Assembly (NCBI RefSeq): GCF_026151205.1
Contig: NW_026971773.1
Span: forward strand, 1 to 64,000
Direction: 5' to 3'
Origin: Bolinopsis microptera
Lineage: Eukaryota > Ctenophora > Tentaculata > Lobata > Bolinopsidae
DNA: 64,000 bases
Shown here one piece after another: positions 1-64,000 of this stretch (positions are counted from its first letter, which is position 1; every line of letters starts with the position of its first letter). The position numbers and the translations under genes are program-made. Below the pieces are notes generated by a model. That model saw only the letters and a list, made by a program, of their open reading frames with translations. It had not been told where the DNA came from and made no database searches.

Positions 1-2811
1 ACAGCTTAAAAAGTTTAACCGGGTCAATCCTACCGGGGAACTTTACTTACCAAGCTTCTGACGCCCCAAGAATTTTAACAGGCGGTCAATCCCCACTCAG
101 GGAATTTAACTTCCAAGCTTTAGACAGCCTTAAGAATTTTAACACTGGTAAACCTCCATGGGGGAAACTTACAAAACAAGCTTTAGAATCTAAAAAGTTT
201 AACAGCGGGTCAATCCCCATCGGGGAACTTTAATTTTCCCAATTTCTAGAAGTCCTTAAAAAGTTTAAAGGCTGTCCATCCCCCACTCGGAACAAAATTC
301 CCAACTTCTGACAGTCCCTAAAAGTTTAACGCTGGTCAATCCTCCACTCGGGGAATTTTATTACCAGCTTCTAGCAGTCCTTAAGAAGTTTAAACTGGTA
401 AATCCCCACTCGGGGAAACTTTATTACCAATTTAACAGTCCTTAAAAATTTAACAGCGGTCAATCCCCACCAGGGAACAAAACTTACAACTTCTGACAGC
501 CCCTTAAAAAGTTTAACAGCGCAACCCTCCCTCAGGAATTTTACTTACCAACTTTAACAGCCCTTTTAAGAATTTTAAAGGGCGGGCATATCCAGCCACT
601 CAGGGAACTTTACTTACCAAGCTTCTAGAGAGGCCTTAAGAGTTTATACAGGCTGGTCAATCCTCCACTCAGGAAACTTTTCTTACCAAGCATCTAGACA
701 GTCCTTAAGAAGTTTAACAGGCATGGTCTATCCTCCACTCAGAGAACTTTATTAACAAGCTGTCTAGACAGTCCTTAAGAAGTTTACGGGGGCTGGTCAT
801 CCGCCACTTAGGGAACTTTACTTACCAAGCTTCTAGACAGTCCTTAAGAAGTTAACAGGCTGGTCAATCTCCACTCAGGGATTTTACGTACTCATAGCTT
901 CTAGACAGTAGCCAGTCCTTAAGAAGTTTTAACAGGCTGGTCTATCCTCCACTCAGAGACTTTACTTACCAAGCTTCTAGACAGTAGTCCTTAACGAAGT
1001 TTAACTGGCTGGTCAATCCTCTCAGGGACTTTACTTACCAAGCTTCTTGACAGTCTTAAGAAGTTGAACAGGCCTGGTCAATTCCTACCACTCAGGGAAC
1101 TTTACTTACCAAGCTTCTAGACAGTCCTTAAGAAGTTTAACAGGCTGGTCAATCCTCCACTCAGGGAACTTTACTTACCAAGCTTCTAGACAGTCCTTAA
1201 GAAGTTTAACAGGCTGGTCAATCCTCCACTCAGAGAACTTTACTTACCAAGCTTCTAGACAGTCCTTAAGAAGTTTAACAGGCTGGTCAATCCTCCACTC
1301 AGGGAACTTTACTTACCAAGCTTCTAGACAGTCCTTAAGAAGTTTAACAGGCTGGTCAATCCTCCACTCAGGGAACTTTACTTACCAAGCTTCTAGACAG
1401 TCCTTAAGAAGTTTAACAGGCTGGTCAATCCTCCACTCAGGGAACTTTACTTACCAAGCTTCTAGACAGTCCTTAAGAAGTTTAACAGGCTGGTCAATCC
1501 TCCACTTTACTTACCAAGCTTCTAGACAGTCCTTAAGAAGTTTAACAGGCTGGTCAATCCTCCACTTTACTTACCAAGCTTCTAGACAGTCCTTAAGAAG
1601 TTTAACAGGCTGGTCAATCCTCCACTCAGGGAACTTTACTTACCAAGCTTCTAGACAGTCCTTAAGAAGTTTAACAGGCTGGTCAATCCTCCACTCAGGG
1701 AACTTTACTTACCAAGCTTCTAGACAGTCCTTAAGAAGTTTAACAGGCTGGTCAATCCTCCACTAGAACTTACTACCAAGCTTCTAGACAGTCCTTAAGA
1801 AGTTTAACAGGCTGGTCAATCCTCCACTCAGGGAACTTTACTTACCAAGCTTCTAGACAGTCCTTAAGAAGTTTAACAGGCTGGTCAATCCTCCACTCAG
1901 GGAACTTTACTTACCAAGCTTCTAGACAGTCCTTAAGAAGTTTAACAGGCTGGTCAATCCTCCACTCAGGGAACTTTACTTACCAAGCTTCTAGACAGTC
2001 CTTAAGAAGTTTAACAGGCTGGTCAATCCTCCACTCAGGGAACTTTACTTACCAAGCTTCTAGACAGTCCTTAAGAAGTTTAACAGGCTGGTCAATCCTC
2101 CACTCAGGGAACTTTACTTACCAAGCTTCTAGACAGTCCTTAAGAAGTTTAACAGGCTGGTCAATCCTCCACTCAGGGAACTTTACTTACCAAGCTTCTA
2201 GACAGTCCTTAAGAAGTTTAACAGGCTGGTCAATCCTCCACTCAGGGAACTTTACTTACCAAGCTTCTAGACAGTCCTTAAGAAGTTTAACAGGCTGGTC
2301 AATCCTCCACTCAGGGAACTTTACTTACCAAGCTTCTAGGCAGTCCTTAAGAAGTTTAACAGGCTGGTCAATCCTCCACTCAGGGAACTTTACTTACCAA
2401 GCTTCTAGACAGTCCTTAAGAAGTTTAACAGGCTGGTCAATCCTCCACTCAGGGAACTTTACTTACCAAGCTTCTAGGCAGTCCTTAAGAAGTTTAACAG
2501 GCTGGTCAATCCTCCACTCAGGGAACTTTACTTACCAAGCTTCTAGACAGTCCTTAAGAAGTTTAACAGGCTGGTCAATCCTCCACTCAGAGAACTTTAC
2601 TTACCAAGCTTCTAGACAGTCCTTAAGAAGTTTAACAGGCTGGTCAATCCTCCACTCAGGGAACTTTACTTACCAAGCTTCTAGACAGTCCTTAAGAAGT
2701 TTAACAGGCTGGTCAATCCTCCACTCAGGGAACTTTACTTACCAAGCTTCTAGACAGTCCTTAAGAAGTTTAACAGGCTGGTCAATCCTCCACTCAGAGA
2801 ACTTTACTTAC
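1..2811 (-). repeat. 69-bp minisatellite built from the 3' end and donor of exon 2812-2963
   Basis: About 40 copies. The minus-strand unit is TTCCCTGAGTGGAGGATTG, ACCAGCCTGTTAAACTTC, TTAAGGACTGTCTAGAAGC, TTG|GTAAGTAAAG: about 55 nt of exon plus the full consensus donor and the first intron bases. Copies from 1100 to 2811 are almost identical, with a few short units (about 1503-1560) and GAGAG variants. Copies from 1 to about 1100 are increasingly full of small indels, probably unpolished consensus. Confidence 0.95.
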
Positions 2812-2963
2812 CAAGCTTCTAGACAGTCCTTAAGAAGTTTAACAGGCTGGTCAATCCTCCACTCAGGGAACTTTACTTCGTTACACAGATTACGGAGATA
2901 GTAGATAGAACAGAACAACTCTCTCTCAAGGGGCTCGTACCCGATAGGGGGGATAGGCATGTA
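2812..2963 (-). CDS. DNAJC13: DNAJC13 exon ([12 protein letters not shown]), origin of the 69-bp array
   Basis: The exon is 152 bp, phase 0 to 2, encoding [51 protein letters not shown] (human [51 protein letters not shown], recalled). The acceptor is CCCCCTCAG|TAC and the donor GAAGCTTG|GTAAGT. Its last 55 nt or so are the unit of the adjacent array. Confidence 0.96.
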
Positions 2964-5900
2964 CTGAGGGGGGAGATTACGTGTCAACTGTACAATCATA
3001 TAACTGACACGTGCGCGCGCGCCATCAAAATGATCACGGGAAATAATCACGTGACCTGACAGCGTGAGAAACTCAACATATTTAATAATAAATAAGTATG
3101 TATTTATATACATATATATATATATATTGATTATAATATAAGTATGTATATTGAAGAGACCTGATAAAGTGCGCGAGTATTGCACATGAGCCTTGGTTTG
3201 AAGTCTCCTAAGTGAACAGCTATCTTCTGTATCATAGTCCGTCTCATCTCACTCATCCAGATAGCTTCAGGCGTGTCAAACTCCCCCAGGTAGATTTCAC
3301 TGAACTTAGCAGGACCGTGGTTCTCTAGGAAGTAGATCATCGCCTGAAGAAACATATTGTGTGATTATAGTGTGAGACATATTGTGTGATTATATTTATA
3401 GTTGTAGCATCCTGCATAACTCTTGTAATCTAGCCTAAGATAGGTTCTAGCTGAAAACATTAGAAAGGTATTTATCTAGATATCTCATAGATTTTCAAAG
3501 TACATAGTTATGTGTGAACAACATTGAAACAGAATAATGTGCTTATATTGCAGCAACCCTAACTAACTCACACCGGGAAGAGAGAGCCCCCAACTTCCTT
3601 ATATGGGCATCACGTGGTTAATTATTACCTTATATGGTAATGTAACTATAGCAACAATACCTTATGGTAGTGTTCCTATGGCAATTAAACTCACGCTAGG
3701 CAGCAGAGGAGAGAGAATACTGTTGATGGCAGTGTCAGCACTGTCACCCTGTCTGAAAGCTTGTCTCAAGTGCGTGTTCTGAAGGAACGTTGCTATAGGC
3801 TTCACGTTGCTTCCTGCGGATAAACACGTAGTTTTTAAGGAGTTTTTTTGGTTCGTCGACACTTTTGGATACAGGATCTTTATAAACAAAACATAAAGTA
3901 CACAAGACTTTTGAAACAGCCTAGCCTGTATGTTTAAAAATTAATCTTACCTGTGTACATGAGGATGAAATAGAACACTCCAGTCTGATAAAGTCGCGGG
4001 AGAGCTGGGTTATCTGCCATTATGTTATCTAGCAGTATTGCCACCTGGTGACATTTATGTTATCTAGCAGTATTGCCACCTGGTTACATTTATGTTATCT
4101 AGCGGTATTGGCACCTGGTTACATTTATGTTAACTAGCGGTATTGGCACCTGGTTACATCTATGTTATCTAGCAGTATTGCCACCTGATTACATTTATTT
4201 TATCTAGCAGTATTGCCGCCTGGTGACATTTATGTTATCTAGCAGTATTGACACCTGATTACATTTATGTTATCTAGCAGTATTGCCACTTGGTTACATT
4301 TATGTTATCTAGCCGTATTGGCAAGTTAGTCAAGAAAAGCAGCAAGCTAGACGATAATAACTGGGCAGTTAGAGTAGCTACTGATCTTGAGGAAGCAGCG
4401 AGCAAAGGTCAGCAGCGTGAGGTATGGGCAAAGATCAAGAAGATCTCTGGTAAGAACAAGAAGCCTCAAGCATATTGTGTCCGGGAAAAGGACGGTAGGA
4501 AGATCACGGATCCCCAACAGCAGAGGGATAGGTGGAAGGAGCACTTTACTGAACTTCTGAACCCTCCATTATCAAGTGTCAACCTTGCCGACCTTGATAC
4601 AGTACCACCCCAACCCCACTTTAACTCTCTCTCTTGTTCGGATGGACCACCCACCAGAGACGAGATTAGTTATTCCCTGACAAAGCTTAAGAACAACAAA
4701 AGCCCAGGAGTGGACGGGATAACTAACGAGCAACTGAAGTATGGTGCGAGTGCTCTAGTTGATCAACTAGAGTGTCTATTCAAGAAAGTGTGGGAAGAAG
4801 AGACTGTTCCTGAAGATTGGTTAAAGGGTGTGATCATTGTTATTGGGAAGAAAGGAGACACTTCAGTCTGCGGGAACAACAGAGGGATCACCTTAAGGTC
4901 TACAGCATCTAAGCTTTTTCAGATGATTCTTCTTAAGCGGTTACATGCTGGTATGGAGTGTCTTCTCAGGGAGAATCAGTGCGGATTTAGACAGAACCGC
5001 TCATGTATTGATCAGATTTATTCTCTCCGAACTATTATTCATAACTGTCTTGAGTTTAACATTCCTCTTTACATTAATTTTGTCGATTTCAAGGCAGCGT
5101 TTGATTCTATCAGAAGGACTTTATTTGGTGCAGTATGAGACACTATGGGCTGCCTGAAAAATATGTCAGAATATTTCAGTCATTTTTTGGGGGTACCATG
5201 AGTGCCGTGAGGGTTAATGGGGAGCTGACAGACTGGTTTGATGTTAACTCAGGCACAGGTCAGGGTGACATTCAAGCACCTCCTGTCTTTAATTTCTGCC
5301 TAAACTTTTCTGCATTTCTGGCTGAGACCAACAAGATCATCAGTCAAGGCGCAGTGCTGCAGAAAGAGATGAAGACGGTCGAGGAAAAGGTCATTCTGGA
5401 CACCGATTATGCTGATGACATGGCTATTATGGACAACTCAGGGGAAGGCCTACAGGAGTAAACTGACCTATTAGTTCATTACAGCTCCTACGCTGGGCTC
5501 AGAATAAATGCAAAGAAGACCCAATGCATGGCTGTAAGCAAGTGCGCCTCCCAGCGACCTTTCATCAAGGATGATTGTATTGAGCTGTCGGTTGAGGGTG
5601 AACCCGTCGAGCAGGTTAGCAACTTTGTCTACCTGGGTGCAACTATCAGTGGGGATGGGACAATCAACAGAGACCTGGATGTCCGTATCCAGAAGGCTAA
5701 TGGCGCCTTTCATCAGCTCTGGAACATTTGGAATAGCAGAACTATAAAGACTCCAACCAAGATCAGATTTATATATTGATTTTGCATTTGTTGCGTTTTT
5801 GTTACTCCCTTATCAGCAAATTCCATTTGAGATAAGACGTACAACTCATCACAGTGTGTGTAGTGTATACTGGGCAGCTTTCGGATACTATACATTGTAC

Positions 5901-8900
5901 ATGCACAATTATGATTGAAAACTTTGATGAAAAGGTTCGGTTGGTCATTGGTGGTCTCATGGCGAATCCAAAAGCAGATGCACTTATGAAGTCTGTTCTC
6001 ACGGCCTATGATCCATCTAAGGACCGATCCAATAACAGAACTGTTCTTGGTGGTTCCAGATTTCAAGTACCAACACTTGACGCCTGTGCAAGCTTCTTTA
6101 AGATTGCGACAATTGATGATAATAGTCGAATCTACAGTAATAAGCTAGCTCTTGCTATGCGCATTATTCTTGAAATTGAAACCCTTTTTCCTACCATCTG
6201 TGGGCAGTGTGATGAAGAATATTGCAATAAGTTTGAGTCTCCAACTTCTCCTGTATTGCGTTGTTTCTTGTGCTTTCAAGGCTCTCACAGTTGCGAACAA
6301 ACCACTCAAGCTGCAGCTAATCTCCACAAGTCACCAACAGCGCTACCTCATGGTACTGTGTGGCTCTGCAAACTGTGCTTAACGCAAAATAATCCTGTGC
6401 CCAGCAAGCGTTCCAAATCAAATCGCCACCGATATCCTTCAACTGTTAGTGTAGCGGTTTCAACCCATCCTTCACAGACGGCAACTCTTAATGAAAATAA
6501 ACAGCCGGATATCGACGCAGATGAACTATCTAAGAAACTGGATGCAGTTCACCAGCAGCAGCAACAACCAACGGCTATCAAACCGAGTGAGGATGATACA
6601 ATCTGTGTTGACTACACAATGGGGAAATGCCCTCACGGAATAAGTGGACGGACTCTCCACCAGGGTAAAACTACATGCAGCAAGCTTCATCCTAAGCGCT
6701 GTAAAAAGTTTACACGTTTCGGCACTGATTCTAATGGGGGATGTAGTTTAGGTTCAGAGTGTCAGCTCTACCACCCAAAGCACTGCAAAAACTCGGTTCA
6801 ACACAAGCAGTGTTTTAAAGAACAATGCACTCTAGTTCATCTGGTGGGAACTAAGCGTGTGAAACCCTCCAAAGATAAAGATACTCGGAAGAAGGACGGC
6901 AAACATCCAGGTGGTGAGAGCCGTCCAGATCGGGGATCTTACAGGCGCACTGAGAGTACTTCTGCTGCCAACGAGCCTTCGGAAAAAACGACCGGCAACT
7001 CTCAACATTCAACCTCTTTTTTAGAGATACAGAACCTACTCAAAGTGATGCAGGCAAACTTTCAGTCGGAAATAATTTCCCTGAAGAATCAAATAGCAGG
7101 TCAAGAGTCGAAATTCAGCAGCTTCTTCCCAACTGCGAACCAGACGCCTCATGCTCAAATGTTCCCGCATCCGTTTCCAACTGTAAGCCAGATGACTCAC
7201 ACTCCAACTTTTCCACATCTGCCTCCAGCCCTGCAGCATCTGAATCCAACACCAGTTCCTCAATGGGCTCGATTTCATCAGCACTCTTGCTGAATGTGCA
7301 ATCCATTAAGGCCAGAGGGGGGGGGTAAAATTGGTTTTTCCGGTTTTCACATATTTGATCAGAGCTGCTGAAGACGAACAAGAAGAAAAAAACCGGACCG
7401 GAATCTGACCTTGCGTTTTTAAGATATCGCGCGCCAAATATTGAGGTTTACATGTAATTACATGTAAAACTTAAACTTAAACTGTAAAAAGTTAAAAGTC
7501 CCTTAGTTGAGAATACTGGCCACACCCAGAAGCTGAAACTTGGCACAGTTGTTCCTTGGGCTGTCACCCACAATTCTATTGTACAAAATTTTGATATTTG
7601 CCTCTGTTCTCGAAATATGAGGTTAACTTTACCCCAAATTCGACAATTTTTCGAAAAGTGTCGAATTTGGGGTAAAGTTAACCTCATATTTCGAGAACAG
7701 AGGCAAATATCAAAATTTTGTACAATAGAATTGTGGGTGACAGCCCAAGGAACAACTGTGCCAAGTTTCAGCTTCTGGGTGTGGCCAGTATTCTCAACTA
7801 AGGGACTTTTAACTTTTTACAGTTTAAGTTTAAGTTTTACATGTAATTACATGTAAACCTCAATATTTGGCGCGCGATATCTTAAAAACGCAAGGTCAGA
7901 TTTCGGTCCGGTTTTTTTCTTCTTGTTTGTCTTCAGCAGCTCTGATCAAATATGTGAAAACCGGAAAAACCAATTTTACCCCCCCCCCCCCCCTCTGGCC
8001 TTAACCCTAGTGCTCGCAGCTCAACCAGATGGAAAATCCCATACATCCGGAATAAAGTAGAGCAGAAATCTAAACATATTTCTGTTCCATTTATTGCCCT
8101 TACTGAAACATGGTTGAAACCTTATATCCACGATTCACAGTTAGATATTGAACATTATAATATCTCTAGATGTGATCGAAGTACTAGGGTAGGTGGTGGG
8201 GTCCTCCTTTATTCTCACGAAAGCCTCCCCATCACCAGCTCTCAGACATTTGATGATAAGATCTGTCAAGCATTACTTTGTAAATGTGAAACAGCAAAAA
8301 TGATCATATGTGTCCTTTATCGTCCTCCTGATGCCCCAATGGCCAGTTTCAAAGCATGTTTAGAGTATATGGCTGATTATATATCTGGACATGAATCATA
8401 TGAGACATGCCTCTTAGGAGACTACAACTTCCCTATGATTGATTGGAAATCCGGTGCAATTCTGTCTGGTGCATCGTCTGCTACAAATCAGTCGGCAGTT
8501 CTTCTCTTTGACTTCATGGCAGACAACTTCCTCAGTCAGTATATTCTGGAACCTACTAGGCTGAACAACTGCCTTGATCTTTTTCTCTCCAATGCTCCTA
8601 ATCTTGTGACACACGTTTCGGTGACTGATACACCTTTGTCTGACCACAAGCTTCTTGAGATCTTTCTGTCACATAATCCATGTCGGTCAGATCCTTCCGT
8701 ACCCCCAGATTTCAGTGTTCCTTCGTTTCGGTCACTGGACTTCTACAAAGCAGATTATGACAAAATCAATCATCTCCTTGATTCTGTTAACTGGAGTGAA
8801 CTATGGGAACTTTGTGATCCTGAAGAATTTCCTGAACTGTTGAACCTTGTCCTTCTTCAGATATGTGAGATGGGGTGCCCAAGGAAAAAGGCATCTAGCA

Positions 8901-11900
8901 AAAGGCGAGGTTCACCGGTTAATACATTGTCTCGCAAGAAACGCAAATTAAAACTTCGGTTGCATTTGGCTGAACAAAATCCAGTCGCTACAACAGCTCA
9001 CTTGGAGTCACTTAGAAACCAGATTTCGAGTGTGTACGCTGACATGCGAGACGCTATAAACCACGACCTTAACTACCGTGAACAACAGGCGGTAGATAAA
9101 GTGCACAGCAATCCAAAATATTTCTACAGCTATGCTAAAAAGTTCTCTAAGCAGAAACGCAGTATTCCAATGCTTTTCAATGAAGCCAAGAGAACTTGCA
9201 CCAATCCTGAAGAGATTGCTAACATCCTCCAGCGTCAATTCAGCAGTGTATTCAGTGACCCTTCAGCCACCAACATCAATGATGCATTATTTCAGTCACC
9301 TTCTCTACAGAAGCCATTCATTGATGACATGTTGGCATTCTCGGTTGCTGATATAATGGAGGCTATTGATGAAATTAAGCCGGGTGCCGCTGCTGGGCCT
9401 GATGATCTTCCAGTCCTGCTTCTGAAGAAGTGCAAAGAAGCACTCTCCAAACCTATACACATGATTTGGCAGCATTCTATGTCTACAGGCACAGTGCCGA
9501 AGTTCTACAAGACATCAAACATTGCTCCACTTCACAAGAAAGGCAGTCGTGCTATTGCGGGAAACTACAGACCTGTGTCGTTAACTTCTCATGTCATTAA
9601 GATCTATGAGCGAGTTCTACGAAAACAGATGGTGGCCCACCTCGAAGAAAACAACCTTCTCAATAGCAAACAGCATGGCTTCCGATCGGGGAAAAGTTGT
9701 CTCACTCAGCTGCTTCATCATTTTGATGACATCATCGAGGCGTTATCAAATGGTGACGACATGGACGCTATATACTTGGATTATGCCAAGGCCTTTGATA
9801 AAGTAGATCATCAACTTCTTATCAAAAAACTGCAGCTATATGGTTTTCATCCCAAAATCATCATCTGGATCGAGTCATTTCTTACAAATAGAACTCAACA
9901 AGTTGTTGTAGATGGTCACATGTCTATCATTGCTCTTATTATGAGTGGTGTCCCCCAAGGAACAGTTTTAGGTCCCATACTGTTTTTAATATTCATTAAT
10001 GACATTGCTAGCTGCGTGTTGCATTCAACGTTAAGATGTTTCGCTGACGACACAAGAATTTGCAGATCCATCAGTGATTCACATAATGTTACTGAGCTTC
10101 AGTCTGATCTTGACAAAGTCACTGAGTGGTCATCAAGAAACAACATGGCACTACATGAGGATAAGTTTGAGTACATATGCCATCTTGCCAACAAACGTAA
10201 TCCTCTCTATGAGCTTCCTTTTGTCCATGAACAGTTCCAATACAGAACATCAACTGGTACTATACTCAGTCCTGTGGATCAGCTCCGTGATCTCGGTATA
10301 ACAGTATCCAGTGATACGTCCTGGACATCACACATACGATCTAGTTGTGATAAAGCGAGGAAGATGGCAGCATGGGTATTCAGTGTCTTCCACTCTCGCA
10401 ATACTGGTGTTATGTTAACACTATACAAGTCACTAGTCCGTAGCCACTTAGAGTATTGCTCTCCTCTGTGGAATCCGGCGAAAGTGTATGAAATTCAGGA
10501 GCTTGAAAGTGTACAAAGAACTTTCACTTCAAAGATCCATGGTTTACAGCATCTCCATTATTGGGATCGCCTAAAAACCCTGTCCCTCATGTCACTTCAG
10601 AGGCGCAGAGAACGTTACATTGTCATGCACATGTGGAAAATCCTACATGGTTTCACATCCAACGACCTTGAAGTACAGTTCACAGTAAATCCACGATTGG
10701 GTACCCTTGCTAAGGTTCCAGCTGTCCGTACAAAAAGCTCAGCTGCTCACCAGACTCTATATGAAACATCATTTGGTGTAATGGGTCCCAGACTCTGGAA
10801 CTGTATACCTTCGCACATACGTGCAGTCTCCAAACATGATGGCTTCAAGCATCATATGACGGCATTCATGCTTTCCTTGCCGGATAAACCGCCAATCCGG
10901 GGCTTCACATCACCGAACTCCAATTCTATACTGGACTGGCGTAACGATCGAGAGGCATCTTCTCTCTGGGGTGGTCAGCAACTCTGATGGCCTGTCGAGT
11001 TTCGACGAAGCAGATCAAAGGTATCAAAGGTAAGGTAGGATCTATAGGGCTGCTGTCCTCACCATCTTGTTGTATGGAGCTGAAGTCTGGAACACCACCA
11101 AAAAGCAGATGAAACGCTTCGAGGTTTTCCATCAAACCTCCTTGAGAAGGATCCTTAGGATTAAATGGTTCTTTCATGTGACCAACGACGAAGTTCTTAG
11201 GAGGGCTGGTATCAAATCTGTTGAGACTTTCATCAGTGCTGCCAGGCTACGTTGGTATGGACATGTAGTTAGAATGCCAGACTCTAGACTACCGAGGTTT
11301 CTGTTGAACTGGAAGCCAAATTATGGAAAGAGGTCAAGGGGCAGACCCCGTAAGAACTGGAAGTCCTGCGTACTCGAAGATGCTGCTAAGTTTACAGGTG
11401 TTGAAAACATCGACAACAACACGACAGAAACTTTGGCTACCAACCGAATACAGTGGAGACATATGTTACGCCGCCAACGCGATGTGTGTGATGCAGGCCA
11501 CTCCAACGACTAGGAGGAGACCTTACCATGTAACATGTAACATGTATGTATTGGCACCTGGTTACATTTATGTTATCTAGCGGTATTGCCACCTGGTTAC
11601 ATTTATGTTATCTAGCGGTATTGGCACCTGGTTACATTTATGTTATCTAGCAGTATTGACACCTGATTACATTTATGTTATCTAGCAGTATTGCCACCTG
11701 GTTATATTTATGTTATCTAGCAGTATTGACACCTGATTACATTTATGTTATCTAGCAGTATTGCCACCTGGTTACATTTATGTTATCTAGCAGTATTGAC
11801 ACCTGATTACATTTATGTTATCTAGCAGTATTGCCACCTGGTGACATTTATGTTAATTAGCGGTATTGGCACCTGGTTACATTTATATTATTTAGCAGTA

Positions 11901-50900: not shown

Positions 50901-53900
50901 AACCATGGTAACCTCCATATCAGTAACCATGGTAACCTCCATATCAGTAACCATGGTAACCTCCATATCAGTAACCATGGTAACCTCCATATCAGTAACC
51001 ATGGTAACCTCCATATCAGTAACCATGGTAACCTCCATATCAGTAACCATGGTAACCTCCATATCAGTAACCATGGTAACCTCCTTTCCGTAACCACAAC
51101 CATGGAACCCCCATACATTTAACCCTTCCAAGAAACAGTTAAAGGGGCCCCCTTTCAAACGCGGGTTTCTGATTTTAGGAAGTATTGTTTGATGATAGAA
51201 AAAGGGGAAATAGAAATTTTACCGGGCGTAGAAGGGGGTTTCCCATTTAAAAACGTTTTTTGCCTGTTCCTTCTTCCCTCAATTTCCCGGGTTTTTATGC
51301 CCCTTTTTAAAAGGGGCCCTTCTCTAACCCCGACACGGTCCCCAAAAGGTAGGGCTTCTCTAGATACGTACGTTATTGAAACTTTTGGGCTCTTCGGGCA
51401 ATCGCCCTTTGGGGTTTCACAAAGGTTTAGCAAATCCCGCCCCTTCATTTTTTCTTTTGGAAAAACGGGTTTAACTGTCTTTACGGGTCACCTTAAAAAT
51501 TATCTGTCACAACCAAAATAAGGGATAAAAAACATCACTCCCCCCAAAAAAGGGAATTGAAACACCCGGGATCCCCCAAAAAAGAGAGGGGAAAAACACC
51601 ACGTGATCCCCCCAAAATAAAGATGAAAAAACACCACGTGTGCCCAAAAAAGGAGAGAAAAACACCCCTATCCCCAAAAAGGAGATGAAAAACCACCACT
51701 GATGCCAAAAAAGGAGATGAAAAAACCACCAGGGTCCCCCAAAAAAGGGAGATTTTAAAACACCACTTTGATCCCCCAAAAAGGAGAGGGAAAAAAACCA
51801 CCACGTGATCCCAAATAAGGGATTAAAACCCACCCGTGATCCCAAAAAAGGGATGTAAAAACCACGTGATGCCCAAAAAAGGGAAATTAAAAACACCACG
51901 TGATCCAAAAAAGGGAGATGAAAAAAACACCACGGATCCCCAAAAAAGGGAGATGTAAAAAACCACGGGGATCCCCAAAATTTAAGGATTTAAACACCAC
52001 GATCCCCCAAAAAAAAGTGTAAAAACACCACGGGATCCCCAAAAAAGGGAGAGGTAAAAACCCCACGGGAGGGCCCAAATAAGGGATGTAAAAAACCACG
52101 TTTCCCAAAAAAGGAAATTTAAAAAAACCCCGTGATGCCAAAAAAGGGGAATTTTAAAAACCCCCTTTGATCCCAAAAAAGGGAGAAAAAACACCACGTG
52201 ATCCCCAAAATAAGGGGGAGTAAAACCCCAAACGTGATGCCCAAAAAAGGGGAGATTTAAAACACCCCGTGATGCCCAAAAAAGGGAAATTTGAAAAACC
52301 CCCCGTGTTCCCAAATAAGGAATTAAAACCCGCGTAAATTGCCCAAAAAAGGGAAATGTAAAAACACCCGGGATCCCCAAAATTTAAGGGATGTAAAAAA
52401 CCACTGTTTCCCCCAAATAAAAGATTTTGGGAACCTCACCTCGCATCTCCGGGAAAGTTAAGCGGGGCCAATGGGGAAATTTTTCCTCCTCAGAAAAGAA
52501 GTAAATCTTTGAGCAGTGTCCACAACCCTAGCAAGGGTCGGGAAGATTGTTCCATAAACCTGAAATTTTTTTAGTCTATTGAATTTATATACTATTTCAA
52601 CTACTACATTTATATCCCAAAAAAAATTAATAAAAAAATTGGAAACTGTGGGGTTGGGGAAGTAAAAAAAAAGGGAAGGGAAATAAGTGGGCCTGCCCTC
52701 TCCCCCAACCCCAAACCCAAAACCACCTAACCTTTTGCTATCTGTTCCGGGGAACCCTCCCCTTTTTTACTATCTTTTGGGGGGGGTTTAATTTCCCGGT
52801 TTATTTCTTTTCCCGGGGGTAAAAAACCTTTTTTCATCTGTTCCGGGGTAACTAACCGTTTACTTTCGGTTCCGGGTTAACCTTTTTCCCTATTTTTTCC
52901 GGGGGTAACAAACCCTTTTTAACATCTTTTGCCGGGTAACTAACCTGTTTACTTTTTTCCGGGGGGGGAACAAACCCGGTTTACACGGGTTCCCGGGGGT
53001 AACAAAACCTTTTTTACTATCTTTCCCGGGGGGAAACTATCCAGTGGGGAATGTCTAAGAAAGGCCCCCCTCATTTACGCAAAAACTCTTGCTTTTAAAA
53101 AGGGCAAATTTTCCGGGGAAACCCCTCCTTTTAAATACCCTTTCACCCCAAAAACCCGCCCTTTGTTAAGGGCCCAACCCGGGGTGGGAACAACTTAAAA
53201 CCAAAACATTTTTCCCCAATCCTGGGGGGTAAAATTGGTACTAGGGTTACTATTAGTTTACTTTTGGGGACTTTTGGTTACTAGGGTGGTTTTTAGGGGG
53301 TTATTTTTCTAGGGTGGTATTGGTTTACGTGGGTTTACATGGGGGGAATCTGGGGGTTTACTTTTGGGGTTCAGGTGGGGTTTATTTTAAGGGTTACAGG
53401 GGTCACTGCCCCCCCCGACATCTTTGGGGTTTTACTAGGGTGACAGGGTTACTAGGGTTTACATGGGGTTACTATTGGTTACGATGGGGGCCTTTGGGGT
53501 TACTATGGGTTACGGGTTCCTTTTGGGGTTTTACGGGGGTTTAAATTTTGGGGTTTACATTGGTTTACTTTTGGGTTTTCTAGGGTTTTCAAGTTCATGT
53601 TCTTTTCCCAGGGGGTTTACTTTTAAACTATGTGGTTACTAGGGGGGGTTACTATTTTGTTACTAATTTTTTACAAAAGGGGGTTCCTTGGGTTTAAACA
53701 GGGGACAATTTTCCCAAAGGTTCTTGGGGTTATTAGGGGGCCCCCCTTGGGGTTACTATGGTTTTGGGGTTTTACTATGGGTTAAAAAAAGGTTACTAGG
53801 TGGTTTTCCATGGAATGGGTTACTAGGTGGTCACAAGGGGGTTACTATGGTTACATGTGGTTTCCCGGGTTTTTACTAGGGTTACAGGGGGGAAAAGGGG

Positions 53901-56900
53901 TTTAAACTCGGGGTTACAAAAGGGGGTTTTCTCCCAGCAACATCTCGAGCAAAAATTTAAAAGGGGCGAGTCATAGTTTCACTGAAAGGGAACCCCAGAG
54001 AGCGTTAGGAAAGAATCGAGCAAACTTTAAAAACCCAGGGGCCCCTGTACCTCTCACCCGGGTGACATTTCCCAACAAGTTTTCCCTTTTTTTCCGGGAA
54101 ACCCTTTTTTTGGAGAGCGGGGAGGCTTTTTGAGCCCCGGTCGGGGGTTGGGTTTGTCGTCATGGGCTGCACAGGGGGGGCCCAAGAGCTACAGCTGCAG
54201 GGGCTCACCCGTCATGGGCCCAAACTTAAAACTTTTTAACACCAAAAAACCCTACCCGTTTGGTTAGAAACAAACATTTTAAAGTAAAACAATTAAAACG
54301 TTTAGTAAATTTAAAAAATTACATTTAGTTTTAGTATAACATACACTTTTATAATAAACATACAGGGTTTAGAAATTAAACAACACGTTTAGAAATAAAA
54401 CAACACGTTTAGAAAAGGGATAACAAAAACCTTTTAGTAAATTTAAAACCATACACGTTTAGAAAAATATAACAAACAGGGTTAGTAAAGTATAACATAC
54501 ACGTTTAGTATAGTATAAGACATACACGTTTAGTATAGTATAACATACACGTTTAGTAAAGTATAACATACACGTTTAGTATAATTTAGCAACTTTTTTT
54601 AAAAGTTTAAAAACATTTTTAAAGAAAAAGTTTAGCTTTCACTTTTTGTATAGTATAACTTACATTTTTAAAATTAACATACAGTTGTAAATTTAAACAA
54701 AACCTTAGAAAAAGTATAACATCCCACTTTTAGAAAGAATAACATACAGTTTATAAAGTTAACAAACTTTAGAAAAAATTAAACTACCTTTTAAATAGGA
54801 AAAAACATACACTTTATTAAATTTAACATACCGTTTGTAAGAATGCTTTACAGGTTAGTAAATATAACATACAGGGTTTAAAGTATACCCTACAGTTTCT
54901 TTATAACAACACTTAGTAAAAGTATAACTTTCATTTTTTTAGTATAGTAAACATACACTTTTTAGTATAGTATAAAAATACCCGTTTAGTAAATTTAAAA
55001 CATACCGTTTGAAAAAAGTATACAACAGGTTTAGTAAAGTAAAAATACCTTTTAAAAAGTAAAATTTACACTTTAGTATATAAAACCATCCCACTTTAGT
55101 AAAGTATAACTTTCCCACGTTAGTAAAGTATAACATCCACGTTTAGTAAAGTATAAAAACATTTTAGTAAAGAAAAAAAACCCGTTTTAATAAAACATAC
55201 ACTTTTATAAAGTTTTAACATCCACGTTTTAGTAAAAAACATACACGTTTTAGTAAAGTATAACATCCCCGGGAAAAAGTAAAACATACACTTTTATAAA
55301 AGGTAACCCACTTTAGAAAAAGTAAAAACCTTCCCCGTTAAAATTAAAATTAACTTTCCACTTTTAAGAAAAGGGTTAAAAAACATACACTTTAGAATTT
55401 AAGAAATCCCGGGTTTAGTATATTTAAACTACACTTTATAAAGTAAAAAAACTTTTTTTATTAAGAAAATTAAAATCCCTTTTAGAAAAGTAAACCAACC
55501 ACGTTTTATAGTAAACCCTTTTCCCCTTTTAAAAAATTTTAAAAACATATACTTTTTAGTATAGATAACTTTAACTTTTTTTAAAAGTAAAAACTTTACT
55601 TTTGGGTATATAAAAACTTTACACTTTATTTAAAAAGAAAACATACACTTTTTAAAGTAAAACATAACGTTTTTTTAAAGTAAACATCCCCGGGTTTAGT
55701 AAAAAAAACATACACGTTTAGAAAAAAATAACCCACGTTTGGTAAGTAAGTTTAATTTAGAAAGTTAACAAACACTTTGAAAAGGGTAAAAATACACTTT
55801 ATATAGTATCCCCAAACGTTTATAAAGATAACATACACTTTAGAAAAGGTTAACAAACACTTTTAAAAGTATAACATACTCTTTTTGTAAAGTAATCAAC
55901 CCCTTTAAAAAGTATAACATACACTTTTATATATTTAAACATTCACGTTTATAAAGTTAACATACATTTTTGGTTAAAATAACATCCCCCCACTTTGTAA
56001 ATATAACATACCCTTTAGTTAGGTTAAAAACATAACTTTAGAAAATTTATACATACAATTTAAAAATATAATATACACGTTTTTTAAAGTAAGCATAAAA
56101 CTTTATATATATAAAAATACCTTTAGAAAGTATAACAAAACTTTTTTTAGTTAGATAACATACACGTTTAGTAAAGTAAACATCCCCCTTTATTTAGTAA
56201 AAATTTACACGTTTTTTAAAAGGTTTTAAATCCCGGGTTTATTTTTGTATAACATACCGTTTAGTAAAGAATAACAAACTTTTATATTATAACATACACT
56301 TTTAGAAAAAGTAAAAAACAGTTTGGTATATTTAAACATACACTTTAGAAATATTTAAACATACTTTTTTTAGAAAAAGTAAAAAACAAAACACTTTATA
56401 TAGTAAAAACCAACCCTTTTTAGAAAATTTATAAATACACGTTTAGAAAATAAAAATACACGTAGTAAAGTATAACAAAACACTTTTAAAAAATATAAAC
56501 AACATTTGGTAAATATAACATACACTTTAGTAAATTTAAAACATACACTTTTTAAAAAAGGTAAACTTCCCAATTTATATATAAAAACATAACATTTTAA
56601 AAAAAGTATAACAAAACATTTTAGTTTTGAACTAAAAACCCTTTTAGAAAAGAAACAAACACGTTTAGAAGTTAACTAACGTTTGTAAAGTATAACATAC
56701 ACGTTAGTAAAGAACAAACCTTTTATAAAGTAAAACAACACGTTTTAGTAAAGAAATTAAACCCCCTTAAATATAATAAACATCACTTTAGAAAAGTAAA
56801 ACCATCCACGTTTCGAAAAGTAAAAACAACACGTTTAGTAAAGAAAAAACATACACGGTGTATAGTAAACCCTACAGGGTTTAGATATTTAAAACCATAC

Positions 56901-59900
56901 ACGTTTAGTAAAAAAAATAAAACACTTTAGAAAAAGTAAAACCATCCCACTTTAGTGTTAACATACACTTTAAAAAGAATGTTTGCACTAAAATTTATAA
57001 AAACATACCGTTTGTAAGTAAACCCATCCCACGTTTAAGTTAGTTTTAACCCATACACTTTTAGAAAAGGGATCCCCTCACTTTTTTATAAAAAAACCCA
57101 ATATTTAAAGTAAAGTTAGCAAACCCTTTAAAATATATAAAAACAATTTTTTAGTATAGTAAAAACAAACACTTTAAAAAGTTTTTAACATCCCCGGGGA
57201 GTTTTTTTTAAACCCTACACTTTTAGAAATAAAACCCAATCCCACTTTAGTATTAAAACTCCCACTTTTAAAGTAATATAACAAATTTTATTTAAAATAA
57301 CATCACTTTATTAATTTAAAAACATACACTTTAGTAAATAAAACCCATAACTTTTAAAAAAGGGTATAAAAATACACTTTGTTTAATAAAAATACACGTT
57401 TAGTAAAGTATAACATACACGTTTAGTAAAGTAACTACCCGTTTAGTAAAGTATAACATACACGTTAGTAAAGTAACAAACACGTTAGTATAGTCATAAC
57501 TACCGTTTAGTAAAGTATAACATACACGTTTAGTAAAGTATAACATACACGTTTAGTAAAGTATAAGCATACCGTTTTAGTATAGGTATAAATACAACGT
57601 TTAGTAAAGTATAACATACACGTTTAGTATAGTATAACATACACGTTTAGTAAAGTATAGCATACACGTTTAGTAAAGTATAACATACACGTTTAGTAAA
57701 GTATAGCATACACGTTTAGAATAGTATACATACACGTTTAGTAAAGTATAACATACACGTTTAGTATAGTATAACATACACGTTTAGTAAAGTATAACAT
57801 ACACGTTTAGTAAAAGTATAACATACACGTATAGTATAGTATAACATACACGTTTAGTAAAGTATAACATACACGTTTAGTAAAGTATAACATACACGTT
57901 TAGTAAAGTATAACATACACGTTTAGTAAAGTATAACATACACGTTTAGTATAGTATAACATACACGTTTAGTAAAGTATAACATACACGTTAGTAAAGT
58001 ATAACATACACGTTTAGTAAAGTATAACATACACGTTTAGTATAGTATAACATACACGTTTAGTAAAGTATAACATACACGTTTAGTATAGTATAACATA
58101 CACGTTTAGTAAAGTATAACATACACGTTTAGTAAAGTATAACATACACGTTTAGTATAGTATAACATACACGTTTAGTAAAGTATAACATACACGTTTA
58201 GTAAAGTATAACATACACGTTTAGTAAAGTATAACATACACGTTTAGTATAGTATAACATACACGTTTAGTATAGTATAACATACACGTTTAGTAAAGTA
58301 TAACATACACGTTTAGTAAGTATAACATACACGTTTAGTAAAGTATAACATACACGTTTAGTAAAGTATAACATACACGTTTAGTATAGTATAACATACA
58401 CGTTTAGTAAAGTATAACATACACGTTTGTATAGTATAACATACACGTTTAGTAAAGTATAGCATACACGTTTAGTATAGTATAACATACACGTTAGTAA
58501 AGTATAACATACACGTTAGTAAAGTAATAACATACACGTTTAGTAAAGTATAGCATACACGTTTAGAATAGTATAACATACACGTTTAGTAAAGTATAAC
58601 ATACACGTTTAGTATAGTATAACATACACGTTTAGTATAGTATACATACACGTTTAGGTAAAGTATAACATACACGTTTAGTATAGTATAACATACACGT
58701 TTTAGTAAAGTATAACATACACGTTTAGTATAGTATAACATACACGTTTAGTAAAGTATACATACACGTTTAGTATAGTATAACATACACGTTTAGTAAA
58801 GTATAACATACACGTTTAGTAAAGTATAACATACACGTTTAGTATAGTATAACATACACGTTTAGTAAAGTATAAGGACACGTTCATAAAAAAGATGAAA
58901 TTCAGCCAAAATTTGTTAACTGTGATTTTTGTGTCTTCTTATCAAAATGAGAAACATGATAATAATCCCATGGTTAAGTTAAACGTTCAAATTTTGCAAT
59001 GCTGAAATCGCCAAATAATTTTTTTCCTTAGTTACGGAGTGATAGTCGTTTAGTTTGGGGCTCTGAAAATAACACAAAAGTCACAAAATTTCTATTTTTG
59101 GTTTAACACAACCTCTATTATGGGGCCTATTTTTCATTTTGTATGGTCAATATTGATAGTACAAGTTCTTATCAGTCATATGATACGATTCTACACGTTT
59201 TTATTCGTTAAGAGGGCCAATTTAGCACAATAATCACATTTCAATGTAAAAAATGGCCGATTTTCAGAGGTGAATTTGAAGTGCTTAATTCACTAATTGG
59301 ATATTAAAATGTTGCTAGATGTCATCGTGTGTGTATACATTCTTGAGTTTCGTGATTCTGCTTGCCAAAGTGGGGCTAAATTCCACACAATAATCACATT
59401 TCTGTGTAGTGTGTTACTAGGCAGTAAATTTGTCAGTACTTCGTGTGTTTGTTTTTGTTTACCGTGTTTTAGGTTTTGAACTGCTGCTATGTATCATGAA
59501 TTTGACTAAACACTTTAAATAGTAATCTGAATTGAAAACTGTAACACCAGGCAAAAACTTAACACGAAAATCACATATTTAAAGTTACTGTGACTATCAA
59601 CTTCCTGTTCAGGCCCATTTATCGTACATTTTTTCATTGCTCTTTGGTCTATATCTCTTATTGAGACCATTTTAGACTTGAAAAGTTGGTTTCAATCGAT
59701 AATCGGTCAATTTTTAGCACAATAATCACACAAGATAAAGTCCTAACTTATTTTCTATTCTTGTAGTTTTCAAGTCAAGTGTGATATTTGAAGCGGAAAT
59801 CGGTTTTGAAGCTATCAAAATCGTTTATAATTGATTAATGAACAATAGTGTCAGGCATGATGACAAAAAAGGCCGACTTTGAACACAAAAATCACGTATA

Positions 59901-62900
59901 AAAGGCGATTGTGACTATCTAATTGCAGTTTCAGCCCATTAACGATTATGTATGCGTTTTCTATGCTATCAAATCTTTTTCTTGAGACAATTTTAGACCT
60001 GAAAAGTTCATTGAAATCGATATTCGGTCAATTATTGGCACAATAATCACACGAAAAAATCTCGACCTATTTGCTGAACCACAGAGTTAATTTTATTCTG
60101 CGTTCTATATCATCAACTTTTATTGTCTCTAGTTAATGAAGGAGTTTCGGCATGTGTGCTGTGTGATATTTGAGTCAACAGTGGCACCAACTTACCAGTT
60201 TTTAACGTTTTTTAACAGCAATTTCAGATCGATTTTATAGTTCTATGATACAACACAGTTGGTCTTTCTCTATCATACATATTGCAATTTATTGGATTTA
60301 ATTTAACCAATTGATGTGATTTTATTGTCTGAAACAAGCCCTATATCACTTGAACATAAGATAGGAGAATCAAACAAGCTAAGATTCATCATTTATATTC
60401 TATTTTAGAAGATAATTAAGTGACGATGGCAAATTTGAGAAATAAACTCAATCTCTCGCATTTCAAACTTTCAAACGTGATAAATGTGTTTTATATGTAG
60501 CCTTACATGCTCAGAACAGTCTAAGATAATTTCAAATGTAGCAAAACAAAATAGTAACAGTCTAAATGTCTAATTATGAGTCTAGAAAATGATTAAAACT
60601 TTGTTTTAAAATTAGATGTGATTTTTGTGTCGATTGTGACCGTTTAACAGAAAATAATTGATTAATTTCTTGCTTGCGCCATATTTTGAGCTGTAAAAAA
60701 TTGTTTCTGAACTTTGATATTGGCTATCTATCGTTAAAAACGTTAATTTCCACAAATTTGGCCATATTGTGATTTTTTTGCTCTATCTCAGCCATTTATA
60801 TGTGACTCTCTGACCCTTTATCGCTTAACTTACCTAAAAGTGTGTATTAAACACCTTCAAGTACGTTGCACAACAATCTGGTTTTAAATGAATGGGTGAG
60901 TGGCTTCCAAAGTCACAAAAGTGAGTTTTGTGTCATAACTTGCCCAAATATCAATATTTGTTAATTATTCTGCCAACATAGCCTTCATTATGTAAAAACA
61001 AGCATATTCTGAAAGTTTGGTTGAAGTTGGTCAATATTAAGGTTCATTTTTGACAAAAAACAAATTTTGGCTAAAAAAATTGAGAGCTGAATTGCACCTT
61101 TTTTATGAACGTGTCCTTAACATACACGTTTAGTAAAGTATAACATACACGTTTAGTAAAGTATAACATACACGTTTAGTAAAGTATAACATACACGTTT
61201 AGTATAGTATAACATACACGTTTAGTAAAGTATAACATACACGTTTAGTATAGTATAACATACACGTTTAGTAAAGTATAACATACACGTTTAGTAAAGT
61301 ATAACATACACGTTTAGTAAAGTATAACATACACGTTTAGTAAAGCATAACATACACGTTTAGTAAAGTATAACATACACGTTTAGTATAGTATAACATA
61401 CACGTTTAGTATAGTATAACATACACGTTTAGTATAGTATAACATACACGTTTAGTAAAGTATAACATACACGTTTAGTATAGTATAACATACACGTTTA
61501 GTATAGTATAACATACACGTTTAGTAAAGTATAACATACACGTTTAGTATAGTATAACATACACGTTTAGTAAAGTATAACATACACGTTTAGTAAAGTA
61601 TAACATACACGTTTAGTATAGTATAACATACACGTTTAGTATAGTATAACATACACGTTTAGTAAAGTATAACATACACGTTTAGTAAAGTATAACATAA
61701 ACGTTTAGTGTAGTATAACATAAACGTTTAGTATAGTATAACATACACGTTTAGTATAGTATATTATATGAGCTTTACGTAAACAATACAAATCTAGTAG
61801 GCTGGGTGGCGGTTACTATGGTTACTATGGTCACTATGGTTACCATGCGGTTACTATAGCTACAAACCTTGAGACCGAGCTTCTCCCTAAACCCAGGAAG
61901 GTTAGTAAAAGCAGCAAAACCAGCTCTGGACGCCACTAGTCTTCTCATGGCGTGGAAATTTGCTTCTGTTTCTTTAACGGTCGGGCACTGGTCGGAGTTA
62001 GTGATAAAACTATAAATTCTGCTATTAACTGGTCGGAGTTAGTGATAAAACTATAAATTCTGCTATTAACTGGTCGGAGTTAGTGATAAAACTATAAATT
62101 CTGCTATTAACTGGTCGGAGTTAGTGATAAAACTATAAATTCTGCTATTAACTGGTCGGAGTTAGTGATAAAACTATAAATTCTGCTATTAACTGGTCGG
62201 AGTTAGTGATAAAACTATAAATTCTGCTATTAACTGGTCGGAGTTAGTGATAAAACTATAAATTCTGCTATTAACTGGTCGGAGTTAGTGATAAAACTAT
62301 AAATTCTGCTATTAACTGGTCGGAGTTAGTGATAAAACTATAAATTCTGCTATTTTACACTGCACGGAGTTAGTGATAAAACTATAAATTCTGCTATTTT
62401 ACACTGCACGGAGTTAGTGATAAAACTATAAATTCTGCTATTTTACACTGGACGTAGTTAGTGATAAAACTATAAATTCTGCTATTAACTGGTCGGAGTT
62501 AGTGATAAAACTATAAATTCTGCTATTTTACACTGGTCGGAGTTAGTGATAAAACTATAAATTCTGCTATTTATAGGTCGGACACTGGATTAGTGATAAA
62601 ACTATAAATTCTGCTATTAACTGGACGTAGTTAGTGATAAAACTATAAATTCTGCTATTAACTGGACGTAGTTAGTGATAAAACTATAAATTCTGCTATT
62701 TTACACTGGACGTAGTTAGTGATAAAACTATAAATTCTGCTATTTTACACTGGACGTAGTTAGTGATAAAACTATAAATTCTGCTATTTTGTGGGATGAT
62801 TTGTTAAAATCTATGAAATAATTAACGTATTAGTTACTAGCTAGTTAAAATACATGAAATAATTAACGTAATAGTAACTAGAATTATTAAACAGATTGCA

Positions 62901-64000: not shown

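Follow-up and report, generated by a model that had tools for sequence, protein, structure and literature searches.

The 64,000-nucleotide stretch of contig NW_026971773.1 considered here (positions 1 to 64,000; the window) carries a minus-strand homolog of DNAJC13/RME-8, recognised by tblastn with human DNAJC13 and by Pfam, in which introns hold minisatellites whose units include pieces of the gene's own exon edges. At seven of the 29 splice junctions examined, distributed over six introns, we find tandem copies of 6 to 67 nucleotides (nt) of the adjoining exon together with its splice site. These arrays are an unusually rich new example of a known phenomenon, the 'mirages' of amphioxus, and we think it likely that they are minisatellites of this type, made when segments at junctions were tandemly duplicated, then multiplied, and tolerated within short introns that already existed. 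Their neutrality, the manner of their duplication and the correct splicing of the gene that contains them are predictions from DNA sequence. An earlier note on this DNA had proposed tandem duplication across exon-intron junctions and was right to do so, whereas its remark that it knew of no described system of this sort is overtaken by the amphioxus examples (PMC3087553 and PMC3902484, as far as the portions considered here extend).

The survey rests on 108 rows returned for the window by Tandem Repeats Finder and on a comparison of each junction with its own intron, in which an ungapped, junction-spanning match was allowed to extend to both sides and a score of 14 served as cut-off. Exons are numbered E1 to E15 and the intervals that follow them I1 to I15, and all of the arrays are given in the sense of the minus-strand gene. 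Twelve of the 29 junctions score 14 or more. Seven of these, with scores from 61 to 1012, have copies containing at least 6 nt of exon, which is how we define the exon-edge class, and they are exactly the seven junctions, in six introns, that the earlier note had located. The longest exon share is found at the I15 donor (2812), where up to the last 67 nt of E15 and GTAAGT are repeated in a 69-bp unit present about 42 times over 22-2878 (30 copies by the ungapped count), the part from 1 to about 1100 being low-quality consensus. The I11 acceptor (4044) has the most copies, 63, of a 35-bp unit made of 25 nt of E12 and 10 nt of intron including the AG; its array lies in two parts, 4020-4320 and 11548-13644, separated by an insertion. 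The two ends of I9 carry different arrays: at its acceptor (14125; array 14087-14636) a compound 241-bp unit with sub-periods of 111 and 130 bp includes 39 nt of E10, this exon edge being counted in four copies, and at its donor (15249; array 14800-15275, the start being approximate and read from the sequence) the last 27 nt of E9 and the donor are present in three. The I8 donor (19659) stands just at the limit of the class, with 6 nt of E8 and GTACTG in a unit of about 70 bp counted four times; its array covers 19258-19665 and continues with the same unit at 15420-15593 beyond an insertion at 15594-19257. At the I6 donor (47274), 7 nt of E6 and GTACTG recur in seven copies within a 29-bp unit repeated 8.4 times with 100% matches (47037-47280), and at the I1 acceptor (63117) 28 nt of E2 and 27 nt of intron including the AG form a 55-bp unit repeated 11 times (63090-63710; ten copies by the ungapped count). 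Units in the exon-edge class are 29, 35, 55, 69, about 70 and 118 bp long, with 241 bp for the I9 acceptor.

At five further junctions only the intron side has been copied. A 41-bp unit present 19 times (61987-62788) ends at the AG of the I2 acceptor (61987) and takes in 1 nt of exon; an 11-bp unit present 128 times (GTAACCACATA; 45330-46747) begins at position +1 of the I7 donor (46748); and a 22-bp unit at the I5 acceptor (47372; array 47377-47624) lies on the intron side only and does not keep the AG in its copies. The remaining two are weak, namely the I5 donor (47780, score 25) and the I3 acceptor (50622, score 19), the latter beside a 24-bp unit (50626-51096) that stops 3 bp from E4. Of the 41-, 24- and 11-bp arrays that had been described as copying only the intron side of a splice site, the 41-mer and 11-mer do so and the I3 24-mer does so weakly, but the 24-mer of I4 (95 copies, 47963-50240) ends 9 bp before the E5 acceptor (47953) without copying it and scores only 5. 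Two more arrays lie close to donors, GTAACCAT in I10 (13869-13977), 11 bp from that of E10, and GTAACCATA in I3 (61811-61857), 10 bp from that of E3. Counted by interval, an array lies within 11 bp of a splice site in 12 of 15 and an array holding a piece of exon in six of 15, and the view that nearly every intron carries an array seeded from its own junction is partly right. I12 and I13 are without arrays, and the sole repeat of I14 is TA-rich and lies 6 bp from its donor. Some arrays speak against closeness to junctions or lie far from them: a second array in I2 (62803-62881) is 32 bp from the donor, and I7 also holds distant arrays, for example at 31523-31816, 33112-34557 and 38692-39864.

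Two controls bear on the scores. When introns were shuffled with 25 bases kept at each end, 202 junction tests gave a mean of 5.8 and a maximum of 14, a value reached three times. When points in the interior of exons were used in place of junctions, seven of 199 scored at least 14 (63087, 14095, 14083, 4014, 2873, 2861 and 2849), and all seven lie within, or no more than 6 bases from, arrays that span an exon edge.

The splice sites carried by the copies are largely intact. In a count restricted to copies with at least 70-85% similarity to the functional one, and for I15 to those within 1100-2880, a choice of similarity that limits what such a test can say about decoys, the splice dinucleotide is present in 23/23 copies in I15, 64/65 in I11, 11/11 in I1, 18/18 in I2, 8/8 in I6, 5/5 at the I9 acceptor, 3/3 at the I9 donor and 4/4 in I8. 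In eight of the ten arrays examined it is conserved as well as, or better than, the other columns. Since the dinucleotides are kept in nearly all counted copies, there is no sign in the exon-edge arrays that decoys are selected against. The pyrimidine-rich TTTTTTGTTTTCCTAATCAG of I11 stands ahead of the first copy, some 9.6 kb away from the frame-preserving exon edge; splicing to this first AG would, on a hand reading, run into a stop 16 codons later. We also considered whether array units might be translated and dropped the idea: by hand reading, extra copies introduce in-frame stops, the TAA of GTAAGT in I15 and a TAG in the second copy of I11.

How the arrays arose can be put in a few steps. 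Short segments at or across a splice site may have been tandemly duplicated, either by slippage during replication or with the help of microhomology, and the units would then have been multiplied by more slippage or by unequal exchange. Copies spanning a junction would be tolerated because the outermost one stays joined to the intact exon with its own GT or AG, which must serve in splicing, while the remaining copies would become intron. On this account the arrays inflated introns of some 80-250 bp that were already there and did not create them. That E5 to E15 still read as one frame speaks for it. Whether exon overlap calls for anything more was judged against a null model in which one unit is placed uniformly in an ancestral intron, applied to ten arrays whose introns have known limits; ancestral length was taken as present length minus array and insertions plus the intron share of one unit, which gave 81-254 bp. 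This base set omits the arrays of I3, I7 and I15, whose length is unknown or composite, the I2 array at 62803-62881 and the TA-rich repeat of I14; among six variants are some that add I15, I7, the I3 acceptor array, the second I2 array, I14 and the I3 23-mer, assuming ancestral lengths of 150 bp for I15, I7 and the I3 acceptor and 300 bp for the 23-mer, whereas the distant arrays of I7 stand outside the base set and the variants alike. Exon overlap of at least 6 nt is observed in 6/10 arrays against 4.33 expected (P 0.21), and over the six variants P runs from 0.016 to 0.33, the latter with the off-junction arrays added (7/16 against 5.79). The overlap is thus about what short introns give, and because random one-unit duplications in such introns would overlap an exon edge almost as often, a junction-specific mechanism is not needed to account for it.

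Several observations weigh against this interpretation. Among the 126 copies of the I7 11-mer the T of GT is always kept (100%) but the G in 88%, less than the 95% of the other columns, the I5 consensus (11 copies) reads AA where the functional acceptor is AG, and the I4, I10 and I3 23-mer arrays contain no splice site at all. Every one of the ten arrays in the base set either crosses a junction or stops no more than 11 bp from it, where 6.13 would be expected (P 0.004), and with ancestral introns twice as long exon overlap also comes out mildly in excess (P 0.016). The motif GTAACC occurs in the units of 11 of 14 junction arrays (ten sense, one antisense) against 0.29 expected from composition, a degree of sharing that independent random duplications would not yield. 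Finally, the authors of PMC3087553 propose, in the portion of that paper considered, that mirages can create introns, which is not seen here.

The sharing of GTAACC leads to one alternative, in which a dispersed GTAACC/CCATGG motif, lying in sense orientation near splice sites, acts as a slippage-prone seed and the adjoining exon edges are captured along with it. GTAACC/CCATGG can be likened to the palindromic X-boxes bound by RFX proteins. The motif is absent from all five comparison arrays, although these and the 14 junction arrays were our own selection from the Tandem Repeats Finder rows. The heptamer GTAACCA is strongly strand-biased, with 243 sense and 18 antisense occurrences in the window, and is mostly sense in eight of the nine introns that have it; outside the listed arrays there are seven sense and one antisense. 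In addition, a 22-mer, ACTGTAACCATGGTAACCTGTA, recurs exactly and in equal orientation eight times in the I6 array (47047-47271) and five times in that of I1 (63128-63699). From the shared motif and 22-mer it follows that the units are not made solely of the local exon edge, and it is these two kinds of sharing, among arrays and between two introns, that are new here. Against such a seed stand the absence of the motif from I2, I4 and I15, the mostly antisense occurrences of the heptamer in I3 (6 against 17) and the variable position of the motif relative to the splice site. GTAACC is also found away from any known junction in small arrays of a degraded stretch of sequence, for example 53353-53400 and 53446-53489, which are not among the five comparison arrays. 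The motif was, moreover, picked after the data had been seen, and a single gene cannot tell whether it is common genome-wide. On balance we regard this explanation as unlikely. A search of the open-licence literature with five motif strings found no paper.

The excess of arrays near junctions might instead point to a mechanism directed there, such as U1 or spliceosome-bound nascent RNA, R-loops or nucleosome phasing favouring tandem duplication. The earlier note had suggested a shared mechanism acting at junctions, for example slippage or tandem duplication across AG|GT; exon overlap does not require a dedicated one, but closeness to intron ends lends the idea some substance, with P at or below 0.004 in all variants and 14/16 against 8.58 (P 0.002) in the widest set, where two of the six added arrays lie off junctions. 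The 11-bp limit was nevertheless set after the distances had been seen, and the ancestral lengths are deduced from present introns or, for three of them, assumed. Constraints on branch point, acceptor and donor offer another way for tolerated arrays to come to lie at the ends, and may be what causes the closeness. With exon overlap showing no excess in the base model, we hold a junction-directed mechanism to be rather improbable; the modest and unexplained excess of arrays near intron ends still supports some effect there.

We judge it highly improbable that the arrays themselves created the introns through tandem duplication of exon containing AG|GT, the model of intron gain reportedly set out by Rogers in 1989 and Hellsten in 2011. 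The sequence AG|GT is present in the units of I6, I8, I9 and I11, and the passages considered document the model for vertebrate ATP2A1, for fission yeast genes and in a variant form for potato (PMC4974935), besides its proposal for amphioxus mirages (PMC3087553). Under that model, though, both splice sites should sit in copies of one unit. The opposite splice site, compared with its own intron, scores only 5, 4, 7 and 9 in I1, I6, I8 and I11, and lies outside the array, and I9 has separate arrays at its two ends; the acceptor of I15 is beyond the window, and this intron stands outside the test. We therefore rejected the model, and since the opposite site has no copy in I1, I6, I8 and I11, each of these arrays grew from one end of an existing intron. 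Introner elements are dispersed elements that contain both splice sites and make up almost identical introns. Here, as judged by reading, the splice-site regions seem to differ between introns, and only the short motif and one 22-mer were seen in common.

We find it scarcely credible that the arrays or their copy numbers come from mis-assembly of long reads. Parts of the window are low-quality consensus, and a 1-nt frameshift is apparent in E4, but most arrays occupy sequence free of such signs, hold distinct variants and differ from intron to intron, and two are interrupted by insertions. These interruptions, one in I8 and one in I11, the latter flanked by an apparent 9-bp target-site duplication, suggest that the interrupted arrays are real DNA and older than the insertions. 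The consensus seems not to have been polished at 1-1,100 and 51,100-57,400. Measured against the array consensus, the lowest edit distance over 69 bases of the 69-mer array is 8-14 from 1 to about 1,100 and 0-1 thereafter; the 23-mer array gives 12-24 where windows start at 54,330-57,030, then 5 in the following window and 1-2 beyond it. Homopolymer runs of at least four G or C reach 22, 28 and 40 per kb in the bins at 51, 52 and 53 kb, whereas other bins have 0-13. Copy numbers cannot be relied on within 51,100-57,400 or towards the left end of the I15 array; with raw long reads copy numbers may well change, but the existence of the arrays should hold.

The degraded stretch also affects I3, which is a composite interval within which the exons for human residues 460-753 are unreadable. 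DNAJC13 sequence up to residue 560 shows up there only when frameshifts are tolerated: such an alignment of these residues with the stretch scored 78 and ended near base 53936. Sixty shuffles gave 39.8 (standard deviation 5.0, maximum 54), the opposite strand 40 and the protein in reverse 42. Of nine tiles of 70 residues each, five scored above all 20 of their own shuffles and four did not; tile 495-564 is clear (67 against 42), while 460-529, 565-634, 600-669 and 705-774 are narrow. From this match it follows that I3 contains, in unreadable form, one or more of its missing exons, and that it is not one intron.

The insertions themselves are varied. The one in I11 (about 4324-11547) bears a long interspersed nuclear element (LINE) and is flanked by the apparent target-site duplication GTATTGGCA (4315-4323 and 11548-11556); an endonuclease/reverse transcriptase element with open reading frames (ORFs) at 5836-7293 and 7958-10987 appears to be nested in another reverse transcriptase element (ORF 4278-5138). 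Neither a repeat pattern nor the LINE protein had a match in viral_contigs. The 3.7-kb insertion in I8 (15594-19257) contains a charge-rich ORF of 465 amino acids (16018-17412) with no Pfam match and a 39-mer array of its own (17456-17905). In I3 an insertion of about 2.2 kb (58876-61117), with ends GGACACGTTCATAAAAAA...TTTTTTATGAACGTGTCC forming an inverted repeat, splits the 23-mer array and has no stop-to-stop ORF of 150 or more amino acids. The 27-kb I7 includes a large inverted repeat (32288-38479), with 632-nt arms that are 99% complementary and more arms inside, which looks like a foldback or terminal-inverted-repeat element. It also contains, on the opposite (plus) strand at 38645-43141, an uninterrupted 1498-amino-acid ORF for a seven-transmembrane receptor with an LDL-receptor class A domain, the N-terminal part of which has about six copies of a cysteine-rich repeat of about 200 bp. 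Of eight ORFs of the window besides DNAJC13 submitted to Pfam, three matched (this receptor, as 7tm_1 with LDL-receptor class A, and two reverse transcriptases) and five did not.

The gene map underlying these analyses was built with a human DNAJC13 query, exons being placed by tblastn and their edges refined by reading GT and AG sites, which gave GT at 15 donors and AG at 14 acceptors. All exons are on the minus strand: E1 63765-63998 (which may extend past the window), E2 62914-63117, E3 61868-61987, E4 50459-50622, E5 47780-47953, E6 47274-47372, E7 46748-46897, E8 19659-19757, E9 15249-15331, E10 13989-14125, E11 13719-13822, E12 3951-4044, E13 3695-3813, E14 3161-3343 and E15 2812-2963. 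They cover human residues of about 275-459 and 754-1286. Joined, E5 to E15 form a single ORF of 464 amino acids without stops, identical to the human protein at 285 of 463 aligned residues; E1 to E3 are identical at 92 of 181, and the total is 377 of 644. Pfam finds RME-8_N (E-value 3.9e-61) and GYF_2 (E-value 7.4e-16) in the joined translations. The 1-nt frameshift apparent in E4 is probably a sequencing error; the other mapped exons read through. An identity of 377/644 to human DNAJC13 seems low for a lancelet.

The amphioxus precedents allow a closer comparison, made with the portions of those papers considered here. Mirages have been described in Adh3 and in the globin genes BflGb6 and BflGb9 (PMC3087553), and in PGBD5 and TnC (PMC3902484), as minisatellite-like tandem units across intron-exon boundaries, at either the 5' or the 3' side, with many copies carrying AG or GT. 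According to PMC3087553 both boundaries can be duplicated, the mechanism is unclear, and Adh3 data together with reverse-transcription PCR suggest that mirages do not interfere with splicing. The DNAJC13 arrays are alike in that their units cross the boundary, which they do at seven of 29 junctions, and in keeping AG or GT in nearly all counted exon-edge copies, though not in the intron-side array of I5. Unit lengths also fall within the amphioxus range of 10-72 bp (Adh3) to about 150-160 bp (globin), which the 241-bp unit of the I9 acceptor exceeds if taken whole. They differ in involving seven junctions of a single gene and in exceeding 60 copies in I11, whereas the BflGb6 alleles have three and six units of 150-160 bp (PMC3087553). 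Length polymorphism and somatic instability are further traits of the amphioxus type; the window represents one haplotype. In human genes, De Grassi and Ciccarelli (2009; PMC2812944, in the part considered) describe internal tandem repeats with minisatellite units at exon-intron boundaries that alter introns; these differ in belonging to recently duplicated primate paralogs and in the repeat often being retained in an alternative transcript. The duplication in potato RdRp (PMC4974935, likewise in part) also runs across the border of intron and exon and yields a second copy of a splice site, but in DNAJC13 existing introns were lengthened, with no evidence of a gained intron. We considered and set aside earthworm metallothionein introns (PMC12783039) and Plasmodiophora (PMC6823432), the portions considered of which do not describe exon-edge copies across splice sites. 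Among the matches listed from the open-licence literature we recognised no other paper on mirages outside lancelets. The original report of mirages is said to be that of Canestro and colleagues in 2002.

If the host is not a lancelet, mirages reach beyond the cephalochordates, and a common motif makes their origin, called unclear in the part of PMC3087553 considered, testable genome-wide. A more speculative extension, which we hold to be quite doubtful, is that a sense-oriented GTAACC family at intron ends seeds exon-edge minisatellites throughout the genome, intron ends being slippage hotspots, and that in acceptor arrays with AG|GT in their unit (I9 and I11) the copies may be removed stepwise by recursive (ratchet) splicing. 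If this were true, every copy would restore a 5' splice site, and ratchet splicing would account for the choice of the last among dozens of near-identical acceptors. More generally, these arrays indicate that short introns can grow by kilobases without harm to the reading frame, and the DNAJC13 homolog offers an extreme natural test of splice-site choice, in which up to dozens of near-perfect donor or acceptor copies would be ignored beside the true ones.

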